Shown here piece after piece: positions 1-36,964 of a stretch of 64,000 bases of DNA. The notes under the pieces were generated by a model. It saw only the letters and a list, made by a program, of their open reading frames with translations, made no database searches and was not told the origin of the DNA. The position numbers were made by a program, and so were the translations under genes. Source of the stretch: Victivallis lenta (GTDB lineage: Bacteria > Verrucomicrobiota > Lentisphaeria > Victivallales > Victivallaceae); the NCBI RefSeq assembly GCF_009695545.1, contig NZ_VUNS01000011.1, positions 62,001 to 126,000 on the forward strand, given 5' to 3'. Every line of letters starts with the position of its first letter. Position 1 is the stretch's first letter.

Positions 1-2
1 TG

Positions 3-1001
3 AAAATATTCGGGATTGATGAAACGTTGGATTGGTCAGAAGAGGCGCTGAACCCGCGTGACTGCCGTTATTGGAACTGGTTATGGGCAGCATTGCAGGA
101 ACGTTGCGCGGTGATTCAGCGCAACGATTTACAATCAAGCATCAAGCAGATGGGAGAACCGTTTACGCCCGGTTGTCCGATGAACTTCAACAAAATCGAT
201 ATGCTGGAAACCAGTTTGATTACCGCCGCGCAAAACTATGCGTCACCGGACTATATCAATGATGACATGATCGGGGATCAAAATATCTGGCTGCGTTCCC
301 CATTGTATTCGTATAATGATTTGTGCAATGAATGCGGCTATCATTTCGGCATGTATTCGGCGCGCTGGATGAGACCGGCTGCGTTAAAACATAAAATGCT
401 GATGCTGAAAAAGCTGGTTCAAATGATGCGGTATTATTGGGATGACAGCAACATGTGCGGGACGGTGGAAAATCCGAATATTGCGATTCACATGAAGCGT
501 ACCGACCCGAATAAAATCACGTCATATCCGATTACGTTTCATGACGCAATCACCAAGACCACAGATTATTACGAGACCGGCTTTTTCGGTTTCGGCCTGA
601 TGTATAAATACGTTGTTGCAAATCAAGGCAACATCAATTGGAGCGCATATGGGACGTGTGAAATTACCGCGAAATTCAACCGGTACTGCTACGCATTCGA
701 TTATGTACTATACGTAATCAGCAGCCAATGCAAATTCAACAATCCGGGCGGCGGGTGGGGGGTGAACGGGAACTATAAAGATAACCTTTACCCGTGGGAG
801 CCGGATAAGAAAGTGTGGGAACTTGCTGCCGGATCATGGCCGGCCGGAGAACGCTTTTTCTATCATGCCGACATGCCGCCGGAGAAATGGCCGGGCAAGC
901 GGATTACTGCCCCGGAAACAATCAGACAAGAAGCTGTACAATACGTATATGCGGACGTTTACGGGTTGCTTGACTTTAAAAAATCCATGACTTATTTTTG
1001 A
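3..1001 (+). CDS. Unrecognised prophage protein, 5'-truncated by the window edge
   Basis: The reading frame is open back to base 3, and bases 1-2 (TG) would complete an ATG with the base just outside the window, so the true start is probably position 0; a TTG at 27 is the first in-window alternative. The product is about 333 aa, rich in Tyr, Trp, Asn and Met, with no signal peptide or membrane segment. I do not recognise the family. Its place directly before a collagen-repeat fibre gene and a spike-like gene suggests a virion structural or baseplate protein. It ends just before an intrinsic terminator. GC content looks lower than in the chromosomal genes after 8.6 kb, consistent with prophage origin. 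Confidence 0.75.
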   Translation, partial: KIFGIDETLDWSEEALNPRDCRYWNWLWAALQERCAVIQRNDLQSSIKQMGEPFTPGCPMNFNKIDMLETSLITAAQNYASPDYINDDMIGDQNIWLRSPLYSYNDLCNECGYHFGMYSARWMRPAALKHKMLMLKKLVQMMRYYWDDSNMCGTVENPNIAIHMKRTDPNKITSYPITFHDAITKTTDYYETGFFGFGLMYKYVVANQGNINWSAYGTCEITAKFNRYCYAFDYVLYVISSQCKFNNPGGGWGVNGNYKDNLYPWEPDKKVWELAAGSWPAGERFFYHADMPPEKWPGKRITAPETIRQEAVQYVYADVYGLLDFKKSMTYF

Positions 1002-1007
1002 CGTTTC

Positions 1008-1033
1008 GCCCCCTCCTAAAAAGGGGGCTTTTT
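1008..1033 (+). terminator. Intrinsic terminator whose stem contains the next gene's Shine-Dalgarno
   Basis: A 7-bp GC-rich stem (GCCCCCT / AGGGGGC) with a 7-nt loop is followed by five T. The ATG of the next gene lies 2 nt after the T-run, and the only Shine-Dalgarno-like sequence for it is the AGGGGG in the 3' arm of the hairpin. Confidence 0.75.
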
Positions 1034-1034
1034 C

Positions 1035-2309
1035 ATGTTGTATGCCAACGTGGATACCAAACATTTCGTTCCGATTCCCGGTAATAACAATGTACAGCAG
1101 CCGGAGCAGCGGGACCAGATTATCTATGGGATGCGTGTCGCACTTCGGTTCAAGTTCTGCAATGACGACGGAACGCCGTTTGTCCTGAATGATTCTGATA
1201 CGTTCTGTTGCGGCGGCGATATCAATTTCATCCATGACGATGATTTGATGTTTTACGCCGGGCACGATGATTGCCGGATCGTGTCGGCGGCGGATGGGGA
1301 AATCGAAGTCATGGTTGATTCGACTTCCGATGTGTTCGGGGCCAAAGCTAACCATAGCAATACCCTGATGTATATTCAGGTGAAGCGACACCGCGCCGGC
1401 GACCTCTTGGGCGAAACACTGTTGCAGGATACTGTTTATGCACAACCGGCAGTCATGACAACCGAGGGTGCGCCGACTGCCGCACAGCCGGAGTACACAC
1501 CGACTGCCGGAATGCTGGCAATCATGCGCGCCGGAGAGGAAACGCAATTCGCTGTTGCTGCTGATGCGCCGGATTCGGAATGGAGCGGAGACGCGACCGC
1601 GGAAAGCCGTTGGAAGCGCTCGCGCAATCGTGCTGCCGGCGGGGAATGGAGCGACCCGGAACCGTTGCTCGGCGGACCGCAGGGCGACACCGGGCCGAAA
1701 GGCGACAAGGGCGACAAGGGCGACAAAGGCGATATCGGACCACAGGGGCCGAAAGGGGAACCGGGCAAGGACGGTGCAGACGGTGCAGACGGTGCAGACG
1801 GTGCAGACGGTGCAGACGGTGCCAGTTTCTATACCTACATTGCTTATGCGACCGCCGCGACCGGCGCAGGCTTCTCATTGTCTCCGTCCGGCAGGAAATA
1901 CCGTGCCGAGATCGTTTCACCCGTGCCGCTGGACCCGCCGCAATTGGGTGACTTCTCCGGAGCTGAATGGGTGAAATTTGCGGGCGATGACGGTAAGAAT
2001 TTTCAGGAAATCGCGGTTGCCGACACCGGACAGTCTGTTACGGCGGTTACTCGTATTGTGTTTGAAAATGCGACGGTCCGCGCCGGCGTGGACGGGGAAG
2101 TCATTGTCAGCATGAATGCACCCGGTCTGATGAACGCGGCGTTTACCGGGTACAGCCAGCTTAACGGCCGGACGAAATTGTCCGCCTGGATCAATGGCGG
2201 CGGCAGCGCCGGCGGCGGCAATTCCTCGATGTATGACAACTGCGACGCGCCGTTGCAGGTGGCAGCAGCGGCCAAAACCAATTATTCAATCTTCAAGGGG
2301 GAACTATGA
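1035..2309 (+). CDS. Phage tail-fibre-like protein with collagen-like repeats
   Basis: 424 aa. Residues 1-135 form an N-terminal domain rich in Asp and aromatic residues; roughly 215-262 are uninterrupted Gly-X-Y triplets (GDT, GPK, GDK repeats, then GPQ, GEP and six consecutive GAD-type units), and a C-terminal domain of about 160 aa follows, with a Gly/Ser-rich stretch near residues 390-400. Collagen-like triplets are typical of trimeric phage fibres and tail needles, where they form a triple-helical shaft. The stop overlaps the next gene's start by 4 nt (ATGA), so the two are probably translationally coupled. Role in receptor binding is inferred from architecture and neighbours only. Confidence 0.75.
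   Translation: MLYANVDTKHFVPIPGNNNVQQPEQRDQIIYGMRVALRFKFCNDDGTPFVLNDSDTFCCGGDINFIHDDDLMFYAGHDDCRIVSAADGEIEVMVDSTSDVFGAKANHSNTLMYIQVKRHRAGDLLGETLLQDTVYAQPAVMTTEGAPTAAQPEYTPTAGMLAIMRAGEETQFAVAADAPDSEWSGDATAESRWKRSRNRAAGGEWSDPEPLLGGPQGDTGPKGDKGDKGDKGDIGPQGPKGEPGKDGADGADGADGADGADGASFYTYIAYATAATGAGFSLSPSGRKYRAEIVSPVPLDPPQLGDFSGAEWVKFAGDDGKNFQEIAVADTGQSVTAVTRIVFENATVRAGVDGEVIVSMNAPGLMNAAFTGYSQLNGRTKLSAWINGGGSAGGGNSSMYDNCDAPLQVAAAAKTNYSIFKGEL
1770..1823 (+). repeat. Tandem 9-bp repeat inside the fibre gene
   Basis: Six consecutive 9-bp units (GACGGTGCA; the last unit ends in C) encode Gly-Ala-Asp triplets of the collagen-like shaft. Gain or loss of a unit keeps the frame and changes shaft length by three residues. 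Confidence 0.9.
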
Positions 2310-4390
2310 TTTTTTCCAATATCGATTTTGCAGTCGTCTATGTTGACCCGTCGAGAGAGACAGCCGGCGACGGCAGCACTCCGGAAACAGCGTTGAAAGA
2401 CCTGCCGGCGACACTAGCGGAATTTGCGGACGGAACTTGTTACCTGATTCGGCGGACTGCCGCGGGCGCGTGCGTCATGCCCTCCGGGACCCGTTCGGAT
2501 ATTCTGAATCTGATCGTTGCTGGAATGCCGAAACCGGATGATTTGCTTTATGACATCGTTCCGGATGCAGCAAAAAGCGCCTGGGGAATGGACAGCGCCG
2601 AACATGCGAACGTCAAGAATATATCAGGCTCATCCGCCAGTTTCGGGAAAATTCGCAACTTTCTACTGCATCGGGTTTACCTGTTCCGGGAGAACTCAAC
2701 CGCCAATTCGTATATTTTTAACTTCACGGAATCAAGCAGCTTTTACGCGAATTTCCTGTTTCAGCATTGCCGGTTCGGATATGCCGGCTATGAGTTGGAT
2801 GCGGCAGACTTCACGACCGCAGCGCCCTACAACGCCGCGCGGATGTGCAACTATATCGGGATATATTACGCGAATTTGTGCAGCATGACCGATTGCGCGA
2901 TGAATTTTGACGCTTACGCACACGGTATCTACTGTTACTATGCGAAAATCGTGCAGGTTGAAAACGTGGCAATTCAGGCGTTGGCGACCTCCCGCAGTAA
3001 CAGTTACCGCGCGCTGTGCCTGTCAGACCGGCAGGAAGGCGGAATCGAAGCGACGGTTCGCGGCCTGACTGCGAATATCTGGTTCAACGGAACGGCGCAG
3101 TATGTGCCGTGTCTGCTGCAATTGATGGACTACCAGCAATCAGATATTTCCGAAATTACCGTGACGATGAACAAGGCGCTGGACGAAAACCGGCCGGCCT
3201 CGCTTATCATGTACGGATATATGTTCTATTTCTACTATCTGCGCGATTTTTCAGTCACGGATGTTTCGATCAGTCTGCCGCACCTATGGAATATTCAATC
3301 CGGGGCATCTGTTTTCCGAATGGAACGTTGCTATACCTGTTCGCAGGTCCCCGGATGCGTGCACGAAGTGCGGAACCTGGCGGTTACGCTGGCGGAGGCG
3401 GACGGTATCGGGGAATCGAACAGTTATGATGAAGTCAAAAGTTCAAGCAACAGCAGCTATCAAGCCGTCTACCTTGACTTCCGGCAGACCGAAACATCGA
3501 ATTACTGGAAAGCCGTGGAGGTTGAAAATATCACGGTCAAGCATCCGCGCGGGCGGGCGCTTTATGCGGCGTACTGCCGGCTTGGAAACTGCACCCTGTC
3601 CGGTACGGCGGTATTCGTGGCGGCGCTGGCGGATGTCAATTCCCTGTCTAGTTGGTTTCCGGGCTATGCGCTTTATGCGTGCGACAGCTCGACGGTTCGC
3701 GTGCGGAATCTGGCGGTCAACCTGTCGAATCCTACCTATCCGGCCTTATCCGGGGACCCGGCAATCGGCAGCACTTACAGCGATTATTCATTTGTTTTCG
3801 TCGATGAAAGCAACGTCGCAATCCGGCCGCTGGAAAACAACAGCGATTACCGAGGGAAAAACTACATCGGTTTTGTCGGCAATAACGAGGCGGCGGCCGG
3901 GCATTTCGTCCAGCGGAATCCGCTCGGGCTTTGCGACACCTGGAACGTGTCCAGAACCGGCGGTTCTCCGGCGTGCCTGAAACTCTGGAACAATACGTAC
4001 AACAGTGAAACCGATATGATGATTTTAGGCCGGCGGCCGTTTAACGGCATGGAGCTTTTACCGGAAACGACCGGCCGTCACCGTCTGAAACTGCATATCG
4101 CTTACAAAGGCATTGCCGATGCTTCGATGCTGTATCGGCAACTGATGCTTTCCGCGACGGTACAGGGGGCGACGCAACGCCGGGTATTTTGGAGCGCCGC
4201 GGGCCAGTGGCAGGAAGATGCGGCGGCGATATGGAACAACGATTCGGATTTGACGCAAAAAATGTTGGTTTTGCCGCTGGAATGGACCGAAACGTCGGTT
4301 GTGAATGTGCGGATTTATTTCAACTGGTACAGTCCCGCCGGTTTCGTGTACATCGATCCTGCGGTCGAATTGGAACAAGTAGAACAGTAA
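2306..4390 (+). CDS. Putative phage tail-spike-like protein (beta-helix-like)
   Basis: 694 aa, no signal peptide. The N-terminus (about residues 10-60, with VYVDPS and DGSTPETALKDL) resembles the entry segment of right-handed parallel beta-helix proteins, where a phrase on a time series or area is followed by repeated short strands. Many repeated pairs of the type 'V-x-N-x-x-V' follow (for example VENVAIQ, VRNLAVTL, VENITVK, VRNLAVNL), consistent with beta-helix rungs. The last 130 aa look like a separate jelly-roll-type domain. Phage spikes of this build often bind or cleave capsule or O-antigen; no catalytic residues can be assigned here. It overlaps the collagen-repeat gene by 4 nt and is followed by a gene with its own strong Shine-Dalgarno. 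Spike is an inference; hypothetical structural protein is the safe call. Confidence 0.6.
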   Translation: MIFSNIDFAVVYVDPSRETAGDGSTPETALKDLPATLAEFADGTCYLIRRTAAGACVMPSGTRSDILNLIVAGMPKPDDLLYDIVPDAAKSAWGMDSAEHANVKNISGSSASFGKIRNFLLHRVYLFRENSTANSYIFNFTESSSFYANFLFQHCRFGYAGYELDAADFTTAAPYNAARMCNYIGIYYANLCSMTDCAMNFDAYAHGIYCYYAKIVQVENVAIQALATSRSNSYRALCLSDRQEGGIEATVRGLTANIWFNGTAQYVPCLLQLMDYQQSDISEITVTMNKALDENRPASLIMYGYMFYFYYLRDFSVTDVSISLPHLWNIQSGASVFRMERCYTCSQVPGCVHEVRNLAVTLAEADGIGESNSYDEVKSSSNSSYQAVYLDFRQTETSNYWKAVEVENITVKHPRGRALYAAYCRLGNCTLSGTAVFVAALADVNSLSSWFPGYALYACDSSTVRVRNLAVNLSNPTYPALSGDPAIGSTYSDYSFVFVDESNVAIRPLENNSDYRGKNYIGFVGNNEAAAGHFVQRNPLGLCDTWNVSRTGGSPACLKLWNNTYNSETDMMILGRRPFNGMELLPETTGRHRLKLHIAYKGIADASMLYRQLMLSATVQGATQRRVFWSAAGQWQEDAAAIWNNDSDLTQKMLVLPLEWTETSVVNVRIYFNWYSPAGFVYIDPAVELEQVEQ

Positions 4391-4405
4391 AAAGGAGTAC
4401 GGAAT

Positions 4406-5047
4406 ATGAATGAACAGGACAAGCGGGAAATCGGTGAAATCGTAGCGGCGGCCATCGTGCAGCATGGCGGTTGCCCGCACGGAGTGAATGCCGCGACCGC
4501 ACACGAACTGATCGATTTTGCAACGACCTGGCGACATTGCAAGCGTACCGCTATCGGTGCATTTATCGTTACGCTGATCGGCGCGGCCGGTACTGCGATT
4601 TGGGCGGGGGTGAAAGCGCTGGCGCACGTCGGAACGCCGCTGTTCCTGCTGGCCGGAGCGCTGCTGCTGGCGGCGGGCTGCAGCACGGACAAGCTGGTCG
4701 AATCGGTCAGTCAAAAAAGCGTCAGCCTGAAAGGTTATGGCGCGGTCAACCTGATTGACACCGGCTATAATCCGGCGACCGGCACGACTACGCCGTCGCT
4801 GAATTCCATTGTCGGCAGCACCCATTACAAAAGTACGATTGTGGCGCGGCCGGAGGGGACCGAAACGCCGGATTACATCGACTATGCGCGGGAGGAAAGC
4901 GCAAGTTTCTGGAACTCGAAAGCCAAAAGCACGACGACCAGTTTCACGATTACGGCATCCGGCAAAGAGGCGATGCAGTTCTATTTGATGAAAATTGCGG
5001 AAATGGAACGGCAACGGGACACGGCAGCGACCGCCGCGGAAAAATAG
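4406..5047 (+). CDS. Prophage membrane protein with an internal lipobox
   Basis: 213 aa, preceded by AAGGAG 10 nt before the ATG. Residues 1-47 are soluble with a Cys/His-containing segment; residues 48-68 are a hydrophobic segment, resembling small phage holins or holin-associated proteins; residues 76-92 form a second hydrophobic segment ending in Leu-Ala-Ala-Gly-Cys, a good lipobox with Cys92. The rest (93-213) is polar, ending in a charged possible coiled coil. A lipobox in the middle of a protein is odd: either an internal GTG at 4610 produces a separate lipoprotein (as in nested phage spanins), or a holin-like gene and a lipoprotein gene have fused. Position after the tail genes fits a lysis function, but this is inference. 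Confidence 0.6.
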   Translation: MNEQDKREIGEIVAAAIVQHGGCPHGVNAATAHELIDFATTWRHCKRTAIGAFIVTLIGAAGTAIWAGVKALAHVGTPLFLLAGALLLAAGCSTDKLVESVSQKSVSLKGYGAVNLIDTGYNPATGTTTPSLNSIVGSTHYKSTIVARPEGTETPDYIDYAREESASFWNSKAKSTTTSFTITASGKEAMQFYLMKIAEMERQRDTAATAAEK

Positions 5048-5058
5048 CCGGAGGCAGG

Positions 5059-5889
5059 ATGATTTATGACCTTGAGAAAAAGCGCTTGGTCGAAGGCCGT
5101 CCGACCCTGCGCTATTCGGATAAGCTTGAAAAGTGGGAAATCGCGTTTTCCGGCAGGACGGTTTCACAACAGGCAATTATCTGGCGTGCTGCCGTGGCGC
5201 TTGACTATAAGGCAGAGAATGTGTTAATCCGGATTGATGACCGCCACATCATCCGACTTGGGAATATGGTCCGGCTGCTGATCGATACGCTGTACCTGCC
5301 GTTTTTGGCTGCGGTCGATGCGCGGCCGGAGGGGAAAACGTTGTATTTTGCACTGTACGGCATGGATGCAAACAGCAGGACGGTGGAATATATCGAGTTT
5401 CCAGTGTTGGGGCTTCCGGCGATTGACCCGCCGGGCCTGAATCCGAAGCCGCCGCAATCGGCACGGGATTATTACGACGCACACATGATTAATTACCTGT
5501 TTTGCTGCTATACCGCCGGAGAACGCAATATCTATCCGCAAAGCGGGAAAGTTGAATTTGAGTTTTCGCCGTGGGTGGCGCGTTACCGGTTGGACCTGGA
5601 AGCGAATACGCCGGCTCTTGAAGTCGTGTTCAGTACCGACACTGAACATATGCCGGAAACAAAAAGTTTCTGGTTCAACATCTGCAAACTTGGAACCGAT
5701 AAAATTGCCTTTACAGATGTTCGATGGTTCGACAGGGAGAACGGGGCGGAAACCGAGACTTTGCCGCTTGATTTGAGCGCACCGGCAATGTATCGGCTGT
5801 TGTTTCACTGGCTGGATGCTTACGGCGACCAGAACGGATACTGGTACAATTGCCGCAAAGACAATAAAATCCAATTATTCACGAGGTGA
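5059..5889 (+). CDS. Unrecognised prophage protein
   Basis: 276 aa with a clear Shine-Dalgarno (GGAGG) 6 nt before the ATG. The protein is soluble, rich in Tyr, Trp and Asp, without signal peptide. An N-terminal half of about 130 aa is followed by a short Pro-rich linker (PAIDPPGLNPKPP) and a second half, suggesting two beta-rich domains. I do not recognise it. It lies between the membrane/lipobox gene and a regulator-like gene whose start overlaps its stop by 4 nt (ATGA), so it is expressed with the late genes. Confidence 0.6.
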   Translation: MIYDLEKKRLVEGRPTLRYSDKLEKWEIAFSGRTVSQQAIIWRAAVALDYKAENVLIRIDDRHIIRLGNMVRLLIDTLYLPFLAAVDARPEGKTLYFALYGMDANSRTVEYIEFPVLGLPAIDPPGLNPKPPQSARDYYDAHMINYLFCCYTAGERNIYPQSGKVEFEFSPWVARYRLDLEANTPALEVVFSTDTEHMPETKSFWFNICKLGTDKIAFTDVRWFDRENGAETETLPLDLSAPAMYRLLFHWLDAYGDQNGYWYNCRKDNKIQLFTR

Positions 5890-6344
5890 TGACAATGGAA
5901 TGTTATGGAAAAAATTACGGGCAGATTGGGGAATGTGCCAAATGCAGACTTCACCGGTATTGCAAAACAGCCGCGGACCCGAAACTGTTGTCTGACTGCC
6001 GTACAGAAGATCAGGAATTGAGGGATATTATTATGAATAGGCGATTGGCCGAGCGGCGGGTGGTACGTTCAGTAGCGGCGGAAGAAGAGAAGCGTTACAG
6101 TCGGGCGGACATGATGGAGGTGATTGGTTTTATGGCGGCGCTTGACTTTCGTTCGCTGCAATTGGTCTGGTTGAAATTGAATTTGCCGAATGCAAATTTG
6201 AGTGAACTTGCAGAGAAGCGCGGCGTAAGCCGTCAGGCTATGCACAAAATGGTACAAAGACGGATCAAAGAAATTCCGGAACTGGAAAAATTTTTCACTT
6301 ACCACAGGCGGAAACGTGCCGAGAGGAAAGTGAAAACCGCCTGA
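5886..6344 (+). CDS. Helix-turn-helix protein with N-terminal Cys cluster
   Basis: 152 aa. An N-terminal segment has six Cys and one His (residues about 5-42, two of them as C-x2-C) and could bind zinc or an iron-sulfur cluster. Residues about 105-145 (LSELAEKRGVSRQAMHKMVQRR) fit a sigma-70 region 4/RNA-polymerase-sigma-like helix-turn-helix, with a basic tail. Small sigma-4-like proteins at the end of phage late operons can control packaging or late transcription; no specific role is visible here. Starts could be 5886 or the ATG at 5895; the first overlaps the previous stop. Convergent with the small - strand regulator gene. Confidence 0.65.
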   Translation: MMTMECYGKNYGQIGECAKCRLHRYCKTAADPKLLSDCRTEDQELRDIIMNRRLAERRVVRSVAAEEEKRYSRADMMEVIGFMAALDFRSLQLVWLKLNLPNANLSELAEKRGVSRQAMHKMVQRRIKEIPELEKFFTYHRRKRAERKVKTA

Positions 6345-35171: not shown

Positions 35172-35465
35172 TCAGCAGACGGTGCAGCGCAGCGCCCGGA
35201 TCGTTCCGTCCAGGTCGCGGCACGGTTTTACCGCTGCGACATCGTAGGTCGTGCCGCGCCAGGTCAGCCGGCTCCCCGGCGGGAGCCGGAATCTGCCCGG
35301 CAGCAGGAATTCAAACGCGGCTGAGGCGCCGTCCTCCGGCCGGTAGCCGCGACTTTCGATGACGACCGCCGTTGCGCTGCGCTCTTCGTAACGGACCTCG
35401 CCATCCGCAAAGCCCGGCTGAAGAATCCGCAGCGTGACCGGTTCGGTACAGCGGAATTCATCCAT
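35172..35465 (-). CDS. Small protein after a portal-like gene, possible head-tail connector
   Basis: 97 aa; its ATG overlaps the portal-like gene's stop by 8 nt, so the two are translated together. The sequence is beta-rich (VTLRILQPGF, SATAVVIESRG, RFRLPPGSRLTWRGTTYDVAAVKPCRDLDG), in size and in the W-x-G-x-x-Y-x-V pattern like phage head-completion or connector proteins that follow portals. Those similarities are weak; a safe call is a small protein of unknown function coupled with the portal. Confidence 0.5.
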   Translation of the reverse strand: MDEFRCTEPVTLRILQPGFADGEVRYEERSATAVVIESRGYRPEDGASAAFEFLLPGRFRLPPGSRLTWRGTTYDVAAVKPCRDLDGTIRALRCTVC

Positions 35466-36879
35466 TGTCCACCTCCTGCCGCAGCGACTGCCAGGATTCG
35501 ATCTCGCGCCGGATCAGTTCGCGTCGCGCCGGATCGATCTTTCTGACCTTTTCGAGCAGGAAGAGCGCGGTTCGCGCGACTTCGCGGCGGTATTCGATGC
35601 CGCCCGAGAAACGCTTGAGTTCGACCAGCGATTCGATGGAGGACTTGAGGTCGGTCACCGCGAATTCGCGGTTGTAGGCGATGCGCGGGACCCGGATGCT
35701 GCGGTCGTAGCGGCGCATGAGCTCCCAGCAGTGAAGTTCGGCCTGCTCGAGCTGGTCGACCCGGCTGGCGAGGAATTGCTTGATCTGGTGGTGGTCCCAC
35801 GCTTTCGCCTCGGCGGTCTGGGCGGCGCGCGAGGGCTGGATCAGCGCCATGCCGACCACGTCGAAAAGCTCGCGTTTCAGCGCGTCGTTCTCAGCCCGGA
35901 TCGCAGCGGAGTCCGCGCCGGAGGGGGAGATGTAACGGCTGATGCCCTTCTCCTCCGGGCTCTCCCAGATTGCGGCGGAGCGGGCGAGCAGGTGGCTGAA
36001 CTTCTCCCGGCCGTCCGCGTTTTCTCCTCCGGCCGGGTGTGCGCCGCGGGCGAAGCTGTCGGAGATGACCAGAAGCCCGAACATCTGCTTGACCACATTC
36101 ATCTGCGCCTCGGACTCGTTGTTCAGAATCGCGTCGGAGATGCGCACGACGTCCTCGAAGTAGTGTCCGCCGTCGATGCCGAACCCGTCCGGTTCGAACG
36201 AGAGCAGCGCCGGGACGCAGCCGAGCTTGTGTCCGGCGCGCGAGAGCAGCATGGTCCGCCCGGTCCCGGCCTCCCGCTCGAAGATCATCGTTTCGGTCCG
36301 CGTGAAAAGTTTGCGCCGCAGCGCAGGGGAGGGCGGCTGGAACGGGCCGTTGTCGGAAAGAATCCGTTCCTCGAAGATGATCCAGTCGAGCTGCCCGTCC
36401 GCGCCGCAGGACCAGTCGGCGACCTCAAGCGGCGACCAGGCGCGGACGGCGGGGCGGATGCGTTCGAGCTTTTTGCGTTCGCAGTCGATTTCTCCCGAGA
36501 AGTACGGCATCTCGACCGACAGGGCCGCACCGCCGTAGATGTTGAGCAGGGTCGAGAACTGTCTCATGACCTCATTGGCGCGAAGCCCGGTGCGGGAGAA
36601 GTCCTCGACGAGCTCCGGTTCCGCCCCGTCGCGCTGCGGCTCGACCGACAGGATGAACTGCGTGATGAGCCGCGCGAGCTTGCGCGGATAGTTGAAATAA
36701 TATGCGCGGCGCAACCGCTCCTCGAACTCTGGTTCGACCTCCGACACGTGCCGCACCAGAGCACGGCGGATGTACGCCTCGCCGCCGTAGTAGGCGGCGC
36801 GGGAACGTTCCCATACCTCGCGGTTCTCCCGGTGCAGCGCATGGCGCCGCCGGAACAGATAGTCGTAATCCTGCTCCAT
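35458..36879 (-). CDS. Phage-type portal protein, isolated from other phage genes
   Basis: 473 aa. The arrangement resembles SPP1-gp6/DUF4055-type portals: an N-terminal alpha-helical lead, YFNYPRKLARLITQFILSVEP, a middle segment with WSPLEVADWS and IFEERIL typical of the portal stem domain, and a long C-terminal helix with ASRVDQLEQAELHCWELMRRYD. Portals are dodecameric rings through which DNA enters a phage head. Here it lies between AMMECR1 and a sugar regulator with only one small coupled partner and no terminase, capsid or protease. It may be a remnant, a satellite or a domesticated gene; no frameshift or stop is seen, so it could still be expressed. Confidence 0.65.
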   Translation of the reverse strand: MEQDYDYLFRRRHALHRENREVWERSRAAYYGGEAYIRRALVRHVSEVEPEFEERLRRAYYFNYPRKLARLITQFILSVEPQRDGAEPELVEDFSRTGLRANEVMRQFSTLLNIYGGAALSVEMPYFSGEIDCERKKLERIRPAVRAWSPLEVADWSCGADGQLDWIIFEERILSDNGPFQPPSPALRRKLFTRTETMIFEREAGTGRTMLLSRAGHKLGCVPALLSFEPDGFGIDGGHYFEDVVRISDAILNNESEAQMNVVKQMFGLLVISDSFARGAHPAGGENADGREKFSHLLARSAAIWESPEEKGISRYISPSGADSAAIRAENDALKRELFDVVGMALIQPSRAAQTAEAKAWDHHQIKQFLASRVDQLEQAELHCWELMRRYDRSIRVPRIAYNREFAVTDLKSSIESLVELKRFSGGIEYRREVARTALFLLEKVRKIDPARRELIRREIESWQSLRQEVDNG

Positions 36880-36964
36880 CCCATATCCTTTCCGTTTGCG
36901 CTTCCGGCGTGAATTTCCGGAAGCTGCAAACAGCGGGATATGTCAACTTTTCCGTTCCGTGCGG

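Follow-up and report, generated by a model that had tools for sequence, protein, structure and literature searches.

In Rhodobacter capsulatus, the gene transfer agent (GTA) RcGTA is encoded by a core structural gene cluster, and outlying loci for head spikes, tail fibres and lysis genes are placed under the regulator GafA, the two ends of which are tentatively compared to DnaA and to sigma factors (PMC9638019). A second report describes FpGTA of Faecalibacterium as a most likely podovirus-like system whose host-kept particle genes form two operons about 125 kb apart, with the large terminase (TerL), portal, scaffold and capsid kept and with both particles and packaged host DNA shown; the same text presents PBSX of Bacillus subtilis as a host-kept particle that packages host DNA (PMC12946183). 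Within the Lentisphaerae, a study of the cultured strains zth2 and WC36 relates that cells fed polysaccharide, such as laminarin or starch for zth2, release filamentous particles as well as hexagonal or icosahedral ones, that phage genes rise in the transcriptomes under the same condition, and that the authors took the particles for phages and assembled phage genomes from them (PMC11361711); the zth2 RNA-seq data are deposited as PRJNA756144.

In this work, we analyzed a portal gene and its small downstream neighbor in Victivallis lenta. We consider that the pair is probably one unit of a domesticated, dispersed and co-regulated siphophage-like particle, most likely a GTA. RcGTA likewise consists of domesticated siphophage-like structural genes, and its virion chains 6tba_3A and 6tba_50 match the Victivallaceae stopper and tail tube, respectively, a similarity at the level of fold only. 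In contrast to the RcGTA core cluster, the Victivallaceae core itself (portal, capsid, terminase and tube) is divided among loci of one or a few genes each. FpGTA is the nearest precedent seen for split particle genes, whereas the Victivallaceae set comprises at least three to five units, has a siphophage-like tube and belongs to the Lentisphaerota. The XkdH protein of PBSX has the stopper fold that is predicted for the small protein studied here. PBSX is a single contiguous cluster with a contractile tail, whereas the Victivallaceae genes are mostly scattered. Close relatives are the Victivallales prophages G067:C10, G066:C40 and G037:C63, with homologous portal, stopper, capsid and adaptor genes; in these the genes are contiguous and accompanied by neck and tube genes, and in G067 also by a tape-measure match.

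The window, that is, the whole 64-kb stretch of DNA analyzed, is G000:C11:62001-126000 of the 5.55-Mb V. lenta genome (G000), and holds the following features:

35458..36879, minus strand: portal protein gene, 473 aa, for the DNA entry and exit ring of the head (phrog_145 profile)
35172..35465, minus strand: gene for a predicted head-completion or stopper protein, 97 aa (AlphaFold2 model, Foldseek, VIA)
36941-36947, minus strand: promoter-like element GTTGACA, within the 85 nt between AMMECR1 and the portal gene, 68 bp upstream of the portal start

An earlier note on this DNA, made from the letters, had described a lone portal-like gene free of frame damage and coupled to a 97-aa partner by an 8-nt overlap. 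Both the intact frame and the coordinates of the pair were borne out, the shared 8 nt being ATGGATGA, which contains the ATG of the 97-aa gene and the TGA of the portal gene. The 473-aa ORF matches the phrog_145 "portal protein" profile over most of its length (residues 10-422, E 4e-31), and Pfam DUF4055 at E 2e-4 only, under the family cut-off; a PDB sequence search with the portal alignment found no portal. The profile match, which is beyond chance, and the occurrence of homologues amid capsid and terminase genes identify it by sequence as a phage portal protein. The 97-aa protein had no family match in PHROG or Pfam searches.

AMMECR1 (PF01871, E 8e-50) and LptF/LptG (PF03739, E 2e-58) lie upstream and a GntR-type regulator (PF00392, E 1e-7) downstream, and the flanking ORFs also include a cellulase, an ABC transporter and a histidine kinase; among seven more flanking ORFs between 29.6 and 43.1 kb, a Pfam scan recognised no phage family, and an Rfam scan around the pair found no match. 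Contiguous head, tail, integration and lysis genes, as in an intact prophage, were not found around the portal. The absence of terminase, capsid or protease genes nearby, also asserted earlier, thus holds true: the nearest recognised phage genes occupy positions 1-6344 of the window, about 29 kb from the pair, and are the 3' end of another element, a lambda-like prophage at about 42-68 kb of G000:C11 that encodes a portal (phrog_21), a terminase, a protease and a capsid of its own, all of other PHROG families. The proposed housekeeping operon stood in part, since the pair does lie beside AMMECR1 but transcription reading on from that gene is not required, the 85-nt gap carrying the promoter-like GTTGACA.

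The prophage end in the window also encodes a collagen-like fibre protein and an inner-membrane or lipoprotein-like ORF; the lipoprotein shares 38% identity over 100 aa with a counterpart from a zth2 operon described below. The window ORFs 27-6344 were considered as a tail module of the system and rejected, since they belong to the lambda-like prophage. Rejected too was the window copy of k10 (5886-6344), a paralogue of the putative regulator treated below, as it is the last gene of this prophage, whose portal is of another family.

The 97-aa protein was modelled with AlphaFold2 from an alignment of 25 homologues (mean pLDDT 85). In a Foldseek search of the PDB, the 15 top-ranking matches were all chains of phages or phage-like particles, mostly named neck or connector, with modest E values (3e-4 for the first, above 0.001 for the remainder). 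VIA-align gave Z 9.7 with the cyanophage Pam3 neck, 9.4 with the RcGTA virion chain 6tba_3A and 8.6 with the SPP1 connector chain 7z4w, to be read against a baseline in which unrelated 3C proteases reached Z 7.1 with the same model. SPP1 gp16 (7z4w, 2kca) was among the best matches and the predicted model has the beta-barrel stopper fold; PDB sequence searches with the stopper and 491-aa protein alignments gave no useful match. The model thus predicts a head-completion or stopper protein shutting the portal channel. A stopper homologue immediately follows the portal in 18 of the 19 portal loci compared (none was seen behind the portal of G068), and in prophages of the same protein families it stands between the adaptor and the tail genes.

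A strain-specific and degenerate pair was one of the two outcomes named beforehand as refuting, and the survey of 137 genomes of the order found neither trait. The portal had a match in 72 of them and in 65 of the 78 genomes of its own family, the Victivallaceae, so the view of a strain-specific oddity was rejected; 63 of the 72 portal-positive genomes have a single match, and just three match rows of the order-wide search contain an inner stop. A wider scan with the portal alignment, restricted to two peptide patterns, yielded 73 loci, 70 from Lentisphaerota, Victivallales or their members and three from "uncultured bacterium". Among four genomes of its own genus, the dN/dS of the portal is 0.06-0.13 at dS 0.7-1.9. 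The corresponding values are 0.02-0.10 for the major capsid protein (MCP) and 0.06-0.14 for TerL (two pairs saturated) in the same genus, and 0.13-0.22 for the stopper in three genomes, as compared with 0.02-0.08 for SerRS (one pair saturated).

The same genomes encode the capsid and the terminase elsewhere. The MCP (phrog_1328, E 4e-37) had matches in 71 and TerL (phrog_979, E 8e-67) in 85 of the 137 genomes. Portal, MCP and TerL are all present in 64 of the 78 family genomes, all absent in 12 and partially present in two, some TerL matches in this tally being contig-edge fragments. TerL retains its Walker A motif in 32 of 32 rows, and D335, E394 and D468 in at least 31 of 32. In V. lenta, the portal is on C11, the MCP on C9 and TerL on C12; on a single 3.88-Mb contig of G126 they lie at 1.86, 0.57 and 2.24 Mb, respectively, and on the single contig of zth2 (G135) at 1.786, 1.774 and 1.604 Mb. 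Dispersal was read by eye in the 34 genomes of the family that possess all three genes and do not belong to genus g15: portal and TerL are adjacent in two (G122 and G123), portal and MCP at most 12 kb apart in three (G067, G135 and G136), and in the remaining ones the head genes are on separate contigs or at a great distance from each other. The four g15 genomes laid out (G088, G098, G099 and G119) have the head genes together in one short cluster, with no tail genes seen inside. Among the loci of the collection used for the portal tree, 28 have the MCP beside the portal. Few neighboring genes are common between genera, and the neighborhoods differ even within the own genus. As would hold for a GTA, phage-type head and packaging genes are therefore under selection in the host genome and do not make up one self-packaging, self-replicating element, being on three contigs in V. 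lenta and far apart in G126 and zth2, with no phage family among the flanking ORFs scanned at the window pair.

These data bear on the three origins that had been proposed for the pair. A remnant is disfavored by the retention in the family, the low dN/dS and the scarcity of inner stops. A domesticated DNA channel is too narrow a description, as terminase, capsid, scaffold and adaptor are retained as separate units in the same genomes. Of a GTA fragment, the GTA fits best and the fragment does not, the pair being one unit of a scattered set.

A wider form of the remnant view would see all the lone genes as leftovers of an old prophage, split by rearrangement and slowly decaying. It could draw on the 12 family genomes without portal, MCP and TerL, which count against a GTA as well, on a tail tube not found in the own genus, and on V. 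vadensis DSM 14823 (G134:C31, L411 14519-16866), in which the lone MCP is interrupted, with only its last 85 codons left, and a gene for a 518-aa serine recombinase (Resolvase and Recombinase domains) starts 135 bp past the break, as if an element had taken the capsid gene for its integration site. That genome also has a second copy of the capsid gene, 47% identical; given the interruption, the system may not work everywhere. Purifying selection on the portal at considerable dS, frames intact in all but three portal rows, the preserved catalytic motifs of TerL, joint retention in 64 of 78 genomes and a common upstream element nevertheless make such slow decay very unlikely.

Further putative particle components accompany the dispersed head genes. 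In all 14 MCP loci the MCP is preceded by a scaffold-like ORF (PF06810, E 4e-6, under the cut-off), and in 12 of them an adaptor-like ORF comes after the MCP. Ahead of TerL, some genera have a small-terminase-like ORF, so named by resemblance to prophage ORFs and free of Pfam matches, and the own genus has the gene for a 491-aa protein. At E 0.001, the 491-aa family was matched in 37 of the 137 genomes, in a few of these weakly; in genus g16 its gene is close behind the tail tube, and a profile comparison of the two families gave no match. In zth2 (L274 8869-16464; G135:C1, about 2.605 Mb) the 491-aa gene opens a row that also comprises two small genes, lipoprotein-like ORFs and a gene for a collagen-like tail fibre of 750 aa. 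This row stands behind a GTTGACA element and is possibly a tail-tip module of the same system.

The tail-tube family, first reached via the prophage relatives, had matches in 43 of the 137 order genomes, prophage copies counted in. Several g15 tube genes are alone among housekeeping-like genes, and the model of one of them (pLDDT 79) matches tubes of phages and injection systems, including RcGTA 6tba_50; the PDB sequence search with the tube alignment found two tail-tube chains, at E 0.2 only. In the nine genomes of the own genus, three profile searches gave no tail tube at E 0.001 (best value 0.585), and a neck gp10 profile, with matches in 8 of the 137 genomes, had none in this genus. As a separate observation, two genera have two diverged tail-tube-like ORFs in tandem directly after capsid and adaptor (L157 11602-12560 and L160 11962-12898).

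With no demonstrated tailed set in the own genus and a cargo open to other readings, the capsid might have been domesticated to serve otherwise, for instance as a compartment filled with DNA or protein or as a killing or protecting particle. We regard this as unlikely: portal, stopper and a TerL whose ATPase and nuclease motifs are intact have all been kept, which points to DNA packaging, and some genera have tube genes, with a fibre gene after the 491-aa gene in zth2. A DNA-packaging head is the setting in which portal, stopper, motif-intact terminase, capsid and scaffold make most sense together, and tube and fibre genes would add delivery. Since the scattered genes are not packageable as a set, the simplest function for such a particle would be the packaging of host DNA, that is, a GTA.

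The head genes also appear to share much of their history. Pairwise distances correlate between portal and TerL (0.90, 24 genomes), portal and MCP (0.87, 26 genomes) and MCP and TerL (0.78, 24 genomes), one TerL row (G122) being a prophage copy; with the SerRS distance removed, the values are 0.83, 0.73 and 0.62, respectively (17 genomes). Portal and SerRS distances correlate at 0.80 (22 genomes). Without the own genus, the correlation with SerRS is 0.55 for the portal, 0.66 for the MCP and 0.18 for TerL (not significant) in 15 genomes, and 0.38, 0.43 and 0.26, in the same order, in 12 genomes. For the pair G133/G132, dS is 0.14 for SerRS versus 0.67 for the portal, with portal, capsid and terminase in the range of 0.47-0.69, a hint of recombination affecting either the particle loci or serS. 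The moderate to weak correlation outside the own genus and this mismatch leave room for transfer, and the head genes may have moved between relatives. In the portal tree, the rows nearest to the V. lenta portal are Victivallis MAGs, a Victivallales MAG and V. vadensis. The WC36 portal is on another branch, the G066 and G037 prophage portals are in another clade and that of G067 stands beside the g15 portals. The branches of the lone portals are interspersed with some viral contigs, so that there may have been more than one domestication.

Those viral contigs, together with the existence of close prophage and viral relatives, the same upstream element in the related prophage G037 and neighborhoods that differ even inside the own genus, could be accommodated if lone genes had been captured repeatedly from Victivallales phages instead of being inherited as one system. 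We hold this to be very unlikely in view of the strongly correlated distances of genes at three separate loci (r 0.78-0.90; partial 0.62-0.83), their joint presence or absence and the single portal match in 63 of 72 genomes.

The element upstream of the portal suggests co-regulation of the units. Exact GTTGACA occurs twice in the window, on both strands together, and one copy is that of the portal. Within 150 bp upstream, it was found in 33 of 45 head units as against 8 of the 570 ORFs used as controls (Fisher p 4.5e-37), a count made on the same 45 units in which the element was discovered, with several row starts shifted by hand and with mechanical, longest-first control ORFs that may include antisense ones. 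By gene, 13 of 18 portal, 13 of 14 MCP and 7 of 13 TerL units carry it. Outside the discovery set, it precedes the 491-aa gene in 9 of 15 loci, one more being off by a base. Two g15 head clusters have it at a distance of 20 bp upstream, one of three stopper-tube loci checked has it 54 bp ahead of the stopper, and it is present at 1 of 11 k10 loci; none of 20 tube genes had an exact copy in the upstream region searched.

The element is not peculiar to the lone set, as prophages carry it too. In the G037 prophage (L049 8373, 10744 and 13549) it is found ahead of the scaffold-like ORF (83 bp), the portal (36 bp) and the k10-type ORF (50 bp), and in the G067 prophage 44 bp before a small-terminase-like ORF, with none before the portal, MCP or k10-type ORF of the latter; neither three starts checked in G066 nor the portal start of g15 genome G099 has it. 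Its presence before single ORFs of the G037 prophage suggests that the element is older than the scattering. TTGACA is the sigma-70 -35 box. No -10-like partner was found downstream of GTTGACA, which points to an activator or another sigma factor.

A candidate for such an activator is k10, a cysteine-rich protein with a helix-turn-helix and, by eye, a likeness to sigma-4, encoded at a further locus; the copy at G000:C2 is the candidate in V. lenta. Its proposed role as a regulator reading GTTGACA is drawn by analogy to GafA of RcGTA. In some prophages a k10 homologue adjoins terL, and for this reason k10 may instead have a small-terminase role.

Altogether, a working particle can be pictured as follows: (i) the portal ring and stopper would form the DNA gateway of the head, (ii) scaffold, MCP and adaptor would be supplied by a second locus, (iii) the terminase motor would come from a third, with the small-terminase-like ORF or the 491-aa protein, and (iv) the tail tube, in some genera, and the 491-aa/fibre operon would be provided by further loci. 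GTTGACA before many units, possibly read by k10, would allow their joint switch-on wherever they lie, and the products would assemble into one particle that packages chromosomal DNA, delivers it to other cells and thereby acts as a GTA. If a phage had promoters ahead of single genes, its scattering could have gone on without loss of control. We thus lean towards a GTA dismantled nearly to single genes, in which the particle genes left the cluster, the units kept an ancestral phage promoter element, and k10, as a phage-derived regulator with a sigma-4-like helix, perhaps still reads it. The g15 head cluster may be an earlier state, in which case the dismantling could be traced stepwise.

We found no report of a GTA or of scattered phage genes in Lentisphaerota or Victivallales in the open-licence literature, preprints aside, and a GTA in this phylum would therefore be new to that record. 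It would also be an extreme host takeover, in which structural genes that are clustered in phages survive as a chromosome-wide regulon. No packaged fragment of a dismantled GTA could carry the whole set, and since the scattered genes would be unable to spread jointly by their own particle, the question of the benefit of GTAs to the host becomes testable. Besides, finders based on gene clusters are likely to miss a scattered set, and for this reason systems of this kind may be more widespread than assumed. The lone set also provides a concrete hypothesis for the hexagonal or icosahedral particles of cultured Lentisphaerae. Finally, the 3' part of k10 overlaps a 57-65-aa coiled-coil-like ORF in another frame (L180 10055-10683 and nine further loci); both frames are open in these 10 loci across genera, which may point to an overlapping gene or to a programmed frameshift.
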